Assembly: GCF_018919485.1 (NCBI RefSeq) | Contig: NZ_JAHLMU010000001.1 | Location: 3,035,138 to 3,099,137, forward strand | Source of the DNA: Psychrobacter sp. TAE2020 | GTDB taxonomy: Bacteria > Pseudomonadota > Gammaproteobacteria > Pseudomonadales > Moraxellaceae | Reading direction: 5' to 3' | DNA: 64,000 bases | Shown here: in pieces, positions 9,587 to 12,858 of the stretch | How the letters are laid out: each line of letters opens with the position of its first letter | How positions within the stretch are numbered: position 1 is the stretch's first letter | The notes under the pieces: model-generated | Told to the model about the DNA's origin: nothing | Seen by the model: only the letters and a program-made list of their open reading frames with translations | Databases searched by the model: none | Position numbers and translations under genes: made by a program

Positions 9587-10720
9587 ATGGATTTATCTGC
9601 CCTATATTATGGTATCCAGCTGCTCGCAGGGCTGATTATTTTTGTGACGGTTTGGGGCTGGCTACCATTAGACAATTGGTGGGTGCGCGGCGTTGAGTTT
9701 CCGCGTATCCAAATTATGGTGCTGGGGTTCTCAGCTTGGCTAGGTCTATTGCTATTTTGGGCACAATGGTCGCTGTGGCAATGGCTACTATTTATAGCGC
9801 TAACTACTAGTGTCGCGTTTCAGATCAGAATGATACTGCCTTACACAAGGCTGTGGAAAAAGGAAGTGCAGAGCGCTAAAGATAGCTCTGAAGCTAAAGC
9901 GAACCAGCTTAAAATTATGGTCTCAAATGTGCTGACTCCTAATGAGAATAAGCAAAAGCTAGTTGATTTAGTCAACCAAAAACAGCCTGAGATTTTGATT
10001 ACTCTTGAGACTGATGCTGAATGGCAGCAGGCAATGAACGTGATTGAAGTTGATTACCCTTATACAGTCAAAGTGCCATTAGATAATTTATATGGTATGC
10101 ACTTATATTCTAAGCTGGAGTTGATAGATCCTGAAGTGAAGTACCTGATGATTGATGATATTCCTTCGATCCACACTCAGTTACGTCTACAGAGCGGTCG
10201 AGTCATTTGGCTATATTGTCTACACCCTATGCCGCCGAGTCCAACTGAAGCGGACAAATCTACTACTCGTGATGCTGAACTGCTGATGGTTGGTCAACAT
10301 ATCAAGAAAAATAAACAAACCGCCATCTTAGCGGGTGACTTAAATGATGTGGCTTGGTCAAAGACTACTCGTCGTTTCCAACGTATCTCAGGGCTATTAG
10401 ATCCCCGTATCGGTCGGCATTTTATCAACACTTTTCATGTAAAGTATCCGTTTTTACGATGGGCCTTGGATCATATTTTTCATAGTGCTTGTTTTACTGT
10501 GGTTGATATAAAACGTCTTCCCTCTATTGGCTCAGATCACTTTCCAGTATTGACCACCTTACAGTACCAGCCTGAAGAAACCGCCAAGCAAAAAGAGAAC
10601 GCCCCAACTCCCGAAGCTGAAGATATTAAAGAGACTGAAAATAAGATCAAGGCTGGCAAGGCAGAGGGACGTAAGGTCTCTAAAGAGCATGCAGAAGAAG
10701 CTAAAGAAAAAAACCAATAA
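9587..10720 (+). CDS. Membrane-anchored endonuclease/exonuclease/phosphatase (EEP) family protein
   Basis: The protein has 377 residues. Its N-terminus holds about three transmembrane helices (residues 5-90), followed by an EEP catalytic domain. EEP motifs are GDLNDVAWS (metal/phosphate-binding Asn), LDHIFHS and the C-terminal GSDHFPVL with its catalytic Asp-His pair. The domain sits at the membrane and the real substrate (nucleic acid, phospholipid or sugar phosphate) cannot be told from sequence. The final 45 residues are a charged Glu/Lys tail, unusual for the family and probably disordered. Its 3' side faces the putative small RNA at 10.9 kb. Confidence 0.83.
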   Translation: MDLSALYYGIQLLAGLIIFVTVWGWLPLDNWWVRGVEFPRIQIMVLGFSAWLGLLLFWAQWSLWQWLLFIALTTSVAFQIRMILPYTRLWKKEVQSAKDSSEAKANQLKIMVSNVLTPNENKQKLVDLVNQKQPEILITLETDAEWQQAMNVIEVDYPYTVKVPLDNLYGMHLYSKLELIDPEVKYLMIDDIPSIHTQLRLQSGRVIWLYCLHPMPPSPTEADKSTTRDAELLMVGQHIKKNKQTAILAGDLNDVAWSKTTRRFQRISGLLDPRIGRHFINTFHVKYPFLRWALDHIFHSACFTVVDIKRLPSIGSDHFPVLTTLQYQPEETAKQKENAPTPEAEDIKETENKIKAGKAEGRKVSKEHAEEAKEKNQ

Positions 10721-10822
10721 TAATCTTAAGTTATTGATAATCATTAATAAATAACAATTCTAATTAAGATTAACTATGCTTTATTTTATCGACTAAACAG
10801 TATTAGAAGCTTATTGAAATAT

Positions 10823-10840
10823 TGTAAGCAAATGCTTACA
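10823..10840 (+). promoter_or_regulatory. GacA-type upstream activating sequence
   Basis: A perfect TGTAAG-N6-CTTACA palindrome. This is the established GacA binding signature in front of rsmX/Y/Z genes in Pseudomonas and csrB-type genes elsewhere. It is centred about 65 bp upstream of the predicted start of the RNA at 10897, the spacing typical of GacA-activated small RNA promoters. Confidence 0.8.
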
Positions 10841-10884
10841 TCAATTGGGGCTTTTAACGTCTAGGCGAATCCTTAGGTTTGCAT

Positions 10885-10890
10885 TAGAAT
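10885..10890 (+). promoter_or_regulatory. -10 element of the putative Rsm-like RNA promoter
   Basis: TAGAAT lies 44 nt after the GacA box and about 7 nt before the predicted start. No good -35 box is visible, as expected for a promoter that needs an activator. Confidence 0.6.
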
Positions 10891-10896
10891 ACCCTC

Positions 10897-11072
10897 ATCG
10901 ACACAAGGATAAGTAAGGATACGGTGTTGAGACGCTGGTAGCATGGATATAGAGTAGTCTATTGTGTTATAAACTAGCGTGTATGACTTAGGATGAGTCA
11001 GCAAGGATAAAATAATAACAATCTGCTAAATGAACTAAAGCCCGAACCTATTGCCCAAGGTTTGGGTTTTTT
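10897..11072 (+). ncRNA. Putative CsrA/RsmA-sequestering small RNA (RsmX/Y/Z-CsrB class)
   Basis: A non-coding stretch of about 176 nt has all parts of a Gac/Rsm RNA: a perfect GacA box and -10 upstream, and an intrinsic terminator at its end. It carries five GGA motifs at 10907, 10917, 10945, 10991 and 11005, mostly in the form AAGGAT(A). Two AAGGATA copies lie in the loop of a hairpin closed by CGACAC / GTGTTG (10899-10929). TAGGATG is the loop of a perfect 5-bp hairpin (TGACT / AGTCA, 10984-11000), the preferred CsrA site. Such RNAs bind and titrate the translational regulator CsrA/RsmA. The exact ends are estimates. No ORF with a ribosome site covers it. Confidence 0.78.
11037..11072 (+). 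terminator. Terminator of the Rsm-like RNA
   Basis: AAAGCCCGAACC pairs with GGTTTGGGTTTT through Watson-Crick and G-T pairs, followed by a T-run. Confidence 0.8.
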
Positions 11073-11124
11073 CTTGTCAGTTAATTGATGGCATTAAATA
11101 GCTTTAGGGTGATAGTTCTTAGAA

Positions 11125-11158
11125 TAAAAAAAGAGCCTATATATTAATATAGGCTCTA
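11125..11158 (-). terminator. Terminator downstream of surA
   Basis: A perfect 11-bp stem (AGAGCCTATAT / ATATAGGCTCT) with an ATTA loop. Read on the minus strand it is followed by a long T-run, about 50 bp after the surA stop. Confidence 0.85.
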
Positions 11159-11210
11159 TTCGTTAACTATCGGCAGTGTCTAGTTGTGAATGTTCAACAC
11201 GGCTTAGCTA

Positions 11211-12611
11211 TCACTCGAGCACTTGAATATAAGCACTGGCTCGTAGCTCTTGCAACCAATCTTCTTGGGCTTGTGGCGCTAGGCGCTGGTACAGAGCTTG
11301 ACGAGCCATATTACGGCGATACTCGCTACTAGCATCATACTGACGTTTGTCTGCCACTTTTAAGATATGCCAGCCAAACTGAGTCTTAAAGGGCGCAGAA
11401 TAATCATTAATGCTAGTATTCTTCATTACCGCTTCAAAGGGACCAATCATATCTTGTTCGCTAACCCATTCTAGATCACCACCGCGTCCTGCTGAGCCGG
11501 GGTCATCAGAATAAGTGGCCGCTAGTGCTGAAAAGTCAGCTCCTTGGCGCAGCTGATTATAGAGGTCATTAATTTTTTGTTCAGCGAGGGCATCAGTTTG
11601 TAATTCATCGACTTTAATTAAGATGTGACTAGTACGCCACTGGGGCACGATCATTTTATCGCTGTCTTTTTTATTAGCCAGCTTTATGATATCGATGCCT
11701 TCAGGGGTTACAAGCGGTGCACTAACTTCACCTATGCCAAGCTTAGTGATTTCACTAGATAGCTCAGTAGGTAGAGCCGCTGCTTTATGAAAGCCCATAT
11801 CGCCACCTTGTAATGGTATAGCATAGCTACCTTGAACAGCGGCAACAGCAGCATCTACATCCACATCTGGTGCTTGCAAGCGCTTACGCAGTGCTTCTGC
11901 TACTGCTAAGGCTTCAGAACGTTGTGCTGGTGATAGGCGGCTATAATCATCGATATAGGGCACACGCACGTGAATAGTTTGATATTCACTTTGATTGAGA
12001 CGTTTGGCTTCAGGTGAGGCCAAAAATGAATCAATATCCTGTTCACTAATGCGCACACGATTGCTAACTTGGCGTTGCTGTAATGCTTGAATAGCAGCAT
12101 CCTCAATCAGCTTACTACGTAGACTAGCGTAGCCACCAGCTTGTTGGGAATCCATACGTTGTTGCAGAGCGCTAAGACTATCGAGGCCTTCGGCTTCAGC
12201 AATCTTCACTAGGCGCTGATTGATAGCCGCCTCATCAGGCTTGATACCAACACGGTTAATTAACGACAGCTGTAACTCACGCAGGATTAAGGCGTTTAGT
12301 ACTTCAGATTGGAGCTGAGCAGAATTAGCTAACGGCTGACCGGCAGTTTTTGCCCGCAATTGAGTCTGAATGACTGCGTTGATTAAATCGCTCTTTAAGA
12401 TAGCATTGTCATTAACCAGCGCAATAATACCGTCAGTACTGTTACCAGCGGTAAGACGATTGCTAGTGTTTTGACTAGTGCTAGTACTGCTACTGGTTGC
12501 AGCGGTCTGGTTCTTGACGGTTGCTGCTTGAGCATTAAGACTCAAAGCAAGTCCAGCGCTCATTACTAATAAAACCGCACTACTGGTCTGACGTAAACAA
12601 AAAATTCTCAT
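11211..12611 (-). CDS. surA: Periplasmic chaperone / peptidyl-prolyl isomerase SurA
   Basis: SurA escorts unfolded outer-membrane proteins to the BAM complex. A signal peptide (ending near NAQA, about residue 30) leads into a Ser/Thr-rich linker, then the SurA N-terminal domain (GIIALVNDNAILKSDL), a degenerate first parvulin domain and a typical second one (WRTSHILIKVD, GRGGDLEWVS, FGWHILKV). An earlier frame start at 12632 has no ribosome site. The ATG at 12611 has AGGAG 4 nt upstream and gives 466 residues. It lies 248 bp downstream of lptD on the same strand, the usual lptD-surA order, with LptD itself a SurA client. Confidence 0.93.
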   Translation of the reverse strand: MRIFCLRQTSSAVLLVMSAGLALSLNAQAATVKNQTAATSSSTSTSQNTSNRLTAGNSTDGIIALVNDNAILKSDLINAVIQTQLRAKTAGQPLANSAQLQSEVLNALILRELQLSLINRVGIKPDEAAINQRLVKIAEAEGLDSLSALQQRMDSQQAGGYASLRSKLIEDAAIQALQQRQVSNRVRISEQDIDSFLASPEAKRLNQSEYQTIHVRVPYIDDYSRLSPAQRSEALAVAEALRKRLQAPDVDVDAAVAAVQGSYAIPLQGGDMGFHKAAALPTELSSEITKLGIGEVSAPLVTPEGIDIIKLANKKDSDKMIVPQWRTSHILIKVDELQTDALAEQKINDLYNQLRQGADFSALAATYSDDPGSAGRGGDLEWVSEQDMIGPFEAVMKNTSINDYSAPFKTQFGWHILKVADKRQYDASSEYRRNMARQALYQRLAPQAQEDWLQELRASAYIQVLE

Positions 12612-12858
12612 AATGCTCCTAATCACTATCATCTTATAAGATGGGAGTTGTGTGACTGTATCTATAAAGGCTGAATTAACTATCAGTGCTTAGCTAGCTA
12701 TTAAAAATATTTAGTATAACTTAGTATAACAAACGCATTTAATCGCTAAAGGTTGGCAACCCTCATAACATTAGTACTTTTTATAGACTATTAGCTCGTC
12801 AATGAGACTTTAGCTATTTTATAAGCCTATAGCTATTGAACCATCCTTTAGCGGCTTA

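Follow-up and report, generated by a model that had tools for sequence, protein, structure and literature searches.

The window analysed here, a stretch of 64,000 nucleotides from Psychrobacter sp. TAE2020, carries a predicted small RNA (sRNA) gene between two protein-coding genes. From left to right the locus consists of an EEP-domain gene, a GacA box, a -10 element, a GGA-rich stretch, an intrinsic terminator and surA. The 5' neighbour (9587-10720, + strand) and the 3' neighbour (11211-12632, - strand) are taken by us to be the EEP-domain gene and surA from reading of their proteins, and not from a database result. The placement is the one given in a preliminary description of this DNA, and it applies beyond the window, since these two genes flank most copies of the sRNA gene. 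Both are recognised at 44 of 67 loci and EEP alone at most of the others, several of the 67 being truncated or in distant genomes. A second strong terminator-like hairpin (11132-11157, - strand) lies just past surA. As this hairpin directly follows surA, the two genes, surA and that of the sRNA, are convergent and have a terminator each.

GacA box and promoter

The GacA (UvrY) box, TGTAAGCAAATGCTTACA, is located at 10823-10840, has perfect palindromic arms and is assigned to neither strand. It is the TGTAAG-N6-CTTACA palindrome that had been described, and it is present with no mismatch. The exact box is single-copy in the 64-kb window and is found once more in the 3.29-Mb genome, which has 11 sites at up to one mismatch, compared with 3 for the reversed control. 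The described distance of ~65 bp is correct when counted from the centre of the box to the inferred start at 10897, but not to the -10 element, which is at ~53 bp.

The -10 element, TAGAAT at 10885-10890 (+ strand), reads TANAAT in relatives and is kept at constant spacing from the GacA box. The consensus promoter scan lists no -10/-35 pair ahead of the sRNA, so the case for the promoter rests on conservation. The absence of a good -35 element is expected of an activator-dependent promoter and would fit one here. Between the box and the core promoter lies a linker similar to TTTAGCnTCTAG (10843-10862, + strand), which extends into the -35 region and is kept in 49 genomes, with at least 90% consensus in 14 of its 20 columns. 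Segments that resemble this linker are seen in two sister RNAs of the same genome, named B and C below, and also in other genera, and the linker may offer GacA or the polymerase a second point of contact.

GGA sites and structure of the predicted RNA

The predicted sRNA is ~176 nt long (10897-11072, + strand), with its start placed from the -10 element and its end from the terminator. GGA starts at positions 10907, 10917, 10945, 10991 and 11005, and four of the five are AGGA. This count, given in the preliminary description, is right for the window; the GGA at 10945 is missing in most relatives, and the conserved set consists of four nearly invariant sites. At least four AGGA in 176 nt are reached by 0.1% of the stretches of the window and by 1% of shuffles. 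Counted as plain GGA, the motif is not significantly frequent, 13% of shuffles reaching that number. The folding of the sRNA beats that of its shuffles (z = -3.25).

All the structural elements are on the + strand. The 5' hairpin (10898-10930) has an outer stem, 10898-10904/10924-10930, which is 100% paired in 36 sequences, and its loop carries two AAGGA sites, with GGA at 10907-10909 and 10917-10919. A two-pair inner stem (10913-10914/10921-10922) encloses AAGGAU, and a joint swap of U-A and C-G occurs there in 7 of the 36 sequences. The central hairpin (10932-10980) is variable; its stem, 10932-10939/10973-10980, has two-sided changes in 7 of 8 pairs and 91.6% of cells paired. It is followed by the hairpin UGACUUAGGAUGAGUCA (10984-11000), which has the stem 10984-10989/10995-11000 and GGA 10991-10993 in its loop. 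This hairpin is conserved and its pairing is kept, the GACU/AGUC stem becoming GGCU/AGCC in deep-branching relatives with pairing retained. The fourth conserved GGA (11005-11007), which is single-stranded, lies 3' of the GACU hairpin and is invariant in alignment A1. The intrinsic terminator (11037-11072, stem 11037-11070) has 99.7% of cells paired and 6 pairs with two-sided changes. The terminator and the hairpins with one GGA (10984-11000) and with two GGA (the 5' hairpin), all claimed earlier for the window, are thus present and also conserved.

RNAalifold gives 35 pairs, 17 of them with two-sided changes. With the two inner pairs added there are 37 pairs, 19 of which have two-sided changes that keep the pairing, against 9.0 in shuffles, covariation counts that are inflated by the kinship of the aligned sequences. 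Cells are paired in 97.1%, compared with 91.1% in shuffles. None of 500 shuffles is as high, and control structures slid along the alignment are only 30-45% paired. The pairing and the stem changes are signs of an RNA that would hold GGA in loops.

Conservation in Psychrobacter and in other genera

A DNA search finds the region in most same-genus genomes, the nearest of which (L013) is 94% identical. At 55 of 55 examined homologous loci a GacA box with 0-2 mismatches is followed by the GGA pattern. The first GGA is 66 or 67 nt past the end of the box and the second ~10 nt further (one of the 55 homologues has an extra earlier GGA). Further GGA sites are in and 3' of the GACUUAGGAURAGUC hairpin, whose loop GGA is lost in 2 of 55. 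Over 49 genomes the mean consensus frequency is 0.35-0.5 just upstream of the box, rises to 0.65-0.96 between box and terminator and drops to 0.3-0.5 beyond. Conservation is therefore bounded by the GacA box and the terminator, and the comparison across relatives that had been proposed finds box, -10 element, GGA loops and terminator kept and the intergenic sequence on both sides not conserved. These results confirm that the sRNA gene is real and that it is kept throughout the genus Psychrobacter.

The covariance model R1, built from 36 homologous sequences, scores the sRNA at 182.7 bits, the window sequence itself being among those from which R1 was built. Searches with R1 detect the RNA in all but one of the 105 genomes of the genus (104 of 105). 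A second genus of the same family has it in 5 of 6 genomes (L186-L190), and both the GacA box and the 5' hairpin with its twin GGA recur there. When the 5' hairpin is scanned against genome contigs of 84,980 species, there are 52 matches and all 52 are Psychrobacter, which supports the earlier suggestion of a Psychrobacter-like organism.

All 105 same-genus genomes contain the pattern box-N45-75-GGA-N4-34-GGA, and the reversed control pattern has one match in them. The box pattern also occurs in g48, g52 and g58 and in many genomes of g46, a large genus of the same family, tentatively taken for Acinetobacter on account of its size, in which the reversed control pattern is not always zero. Because R1 matches only 3 g46 genomes and does so weakly (E 1.6e-4 to 0.008), the g46 RNAs would be analogues or very diverged. 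Two of the weak matches, L191 and L192, lack a box with three GGA behind it and are excluded from the membership. Short matches to the terminator region of the sRNA are present on contigs C17, C68 and C198 of the incomplete genome G014, as if this region were repeated elsewhere.

Sister RNAs and pathway genes

The genome has about three Gac/Rsm RNAs, of which the sRNA between EEP and surA is here called type A; the single such RNA of the preliminary description gives way to a set that includes two sister genes. The type B RNA gene (G000:C1:1848912-1849292; L002 1150-1530, - strand in L002) has an exact box, eight GGA and a terminator. The type C RNA gene (G000:C1:1649306-1649686; L006 1150-1530, - strand in L006) has a box with one mismatch, seven GGA and a terminator. 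Both types recur in most of the same-genus genomes searched, and their boxes and GGA sites align. In deep-branching genomes of the genus (L143-L147) two or three type-B-like units are found in tandem over ~0.6 to 2.6 kb, each unit with its own GacA box.

The genome has one copy of csrA, which is over its cut-offs (L042), and from reading of the sequence by eye CsrA retains L4 and R44. Of the matches to E. coli UvrY, a GacA-like regulator of 211 aa (L154:2378-3013), which by eye retains D54, is by far the best and the only one that is near-full-length (43%). UvrY/SirA/GacA is its top hit in NCBIfam, at 238.8, which is below the equivalog cut-off of 280. All but one of the 105 same-genus genomes (104) have a GacA homologue. 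The GacS-like hybrid kinase, of 1165 aa (L155:1904-5401), has BarA as its best hit, at 511, also below its equivalog cut-off of 890, and H-box, receiver and HPt segments are read in it by eye. Its neighbour is presumably a cysteine synthase gene. The genome also has hfq.

Comparison with known Gac/Rsm RNAs

Members of the Gac/Rsm class have a GacA/UvrY box upstream of the promoter, and the sRNA gene has one. Several (A)GGA in hairpin loops or single strands are represented here by the four conserved sites in a covarying structure. At the level of sequence the gene is non-coding and stands in its own right, having a promoter and an intrinsic terminator. The genome encodes CsrA and also a GacS/GacA pair, although the GacA- and GacS-like proteins score under the equivalog cut-offs.

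The Rfam models RsmX, RsmY, PrrB/RsmZ, CsrB and CsrC do not match in the window at gathering score, and none of them matches the region 10700-11210 even at E < 10. Sister RNAs B and C have no RsmX/Y/Z, CsrB or CsrC match at E < 1, and at gathering and permissive thresholds Rfam gives only unrelated chance matches in the window and in the two sisters. A plasmid collection gives no match. The Rfam comparison suggested with the first description was thus negative, and the likeness to RsmX/Y/Z and CsrB claimed there stands for the architecture and not for homology demonstrable by Rfam. The predicted sRNA is a member of the Gac/Rsm functional class by architecture and lies outside the Rfam families by sequence.

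In Pseudomonas, RsmX, RsmY and RsmZ are likewise short intergenic RNAs with an upstream GacA box, GGA hairpin loops and a terminator, present in more than one copy per genome together with csrA/rsmA and gacS/gacA homologues. The Psychrobacter RNA differs from them in having no Rfam-detectable similarity and its own site between the EEP gene and surA. Sequestration of RsmA needs several GGA motifs (PMC2375449). With E. coli CsrB and CsrC the sRNA shares the upstream UvrY-type palindrome TGTAAGN6CTTACA, an 18-nt sequence bound by UvrY at csrB/csrC (PMC4682653), and the logic of a GGA-hairpin sponge. The centre of the box is ~183 bp from the start at csrB (PMC4682653), compared with ~65 bp to the inferred start here. 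Unlike CsrB and CsrC, the Psychrobacter RNA has only four conserved GGA in ~176 nt and no Rfam match; sisters B and C are nearer CsrB in size than type A.

Acinetobacter and Psychrobacter are both Moraxellaceae. In Acinetobacter ADP1 two RsmA-regulating sRNAs have been predicted, at a probability of 0.99, on the basis of GGA motifs and structure (PMC5568370), and the link between gacA and csrA has been shown genetically (PMC12455638). CsrB/CsrC-like RNAs of Marinomonas mediterranea, which belongs to another group of organisms, were found by the same features as the sRNA here, and RNA-seq confirmed that RNAs chosen in this way need the GacS/GacA-type pair (PMC8523701). This type of control is well known; RNAs of this kind had been predicted in Acinetobacter, and it was uncatalogued in the Psychrobacter lineage. 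None of the Gac/Rsm RNAs in Rfam matches Psychrobacter, and no paper found on this genus with CsrA or sRNA names one in title or abstract, although an earlier prediction may exist. The type A gene fills this gap, and alignment A1 and model R1 could seed a new RNA family.

Proposed function and alternative readings

Type A is very probably a Gac/Rsm-type RNA, predicted to be activated by GacA~P at the box and to sequester CsrA together with sisters B and C. The identification as a Gac/Rsm-type sRNA gene made in the preliminary description is supported by box, promoter element, structure, terminator, conservation and pathway genes, with no homology in Rfam. In the proposed mechanism, the GacS-like sensor kinase would phosphorylate the GacA-like regulator, and GacA~P would bind the palindrome at 10823-10840 and bring RNA polymerase to the TANAAT promoter. 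Transcription would yield a ~176-nt RNA with four conserved GGA sites: a pair in the loop of the 5' hairpin, a third in the loop of the GACU hairpin and the last just after it. This number is at the low end for a CsrA sponge. The RNA would bind CsrA dimers, releasing the CsrA target mRNAs, and would work jointly with the two longer sister RNAs. That the gene is transcribed under GacA activation and that its RNA binds CsrA and derepresses the targets is deduced here from DNA sequence.

The RNA might instead belong to the EEP-domain gene, as part of its 3' UTR or terminator and with no promoter of its own, for the box lies ~100 bp past the stop codon of EEP, and EEP and the RNA share a strand. 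This origin is highly improbable and is rejected, since box and TANAAT stand at constant spacing before the RNA and the sequence from EEP to the box is unconserved. Deep-branching genomes and a further genus also keep box, promoter and RNA joined. A short protein-coding gene is scarcely credible and is likewise rejected, because stops interrupt all three forward frames in the window, indels among homologues are not multiples of three and pair changes are compensatory.

Just before the terminator, a run of ARN triplets, AAUAAUAACAAU (11011-11022, + strand), is a possible Hfq distal-face site. At least four ARN triplets are present there in 49 of 55 type-A homologues, compared with 8% of shuffles on average, and the run is mostly missing in sisters B and C. 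This conservation and the presence of hfq are consistent with a GacA-activated sRNA that acts chiefly by Hfq-dependent mRNA pairing, its GGA sites being secondary, and RgsA is a known example of a GacA-controlled RNA without RsmA titration (PMC2375449). RgsA, however, contains a single GGA and lacks a GacA box (PMC2375449), whereas the four GGA here are in or beside covarying hairpin loops, and action chiefly by pairing is improbable. A type A that serves two proteins, with CsrA sites and a conserved Hfq-type A-rich site and with labour divided between it and the two longer sponges, is a tentative idea that we regard as unlikely; if true, it would couple Gac/Csr control to Hfq-dependent pairing.

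Should the CsrA-sequestering function hold, the GacS/GacA - sRNA - CsrA pathway of Psychrobacter is complete and includes about three RNAs whose positions are defined, which would make the role of the pathway in this genus directly testable. Such RNAs would be expected by a specialist; less expected are the tandem copies of a sister RNA in some species and the possible Hfq site.
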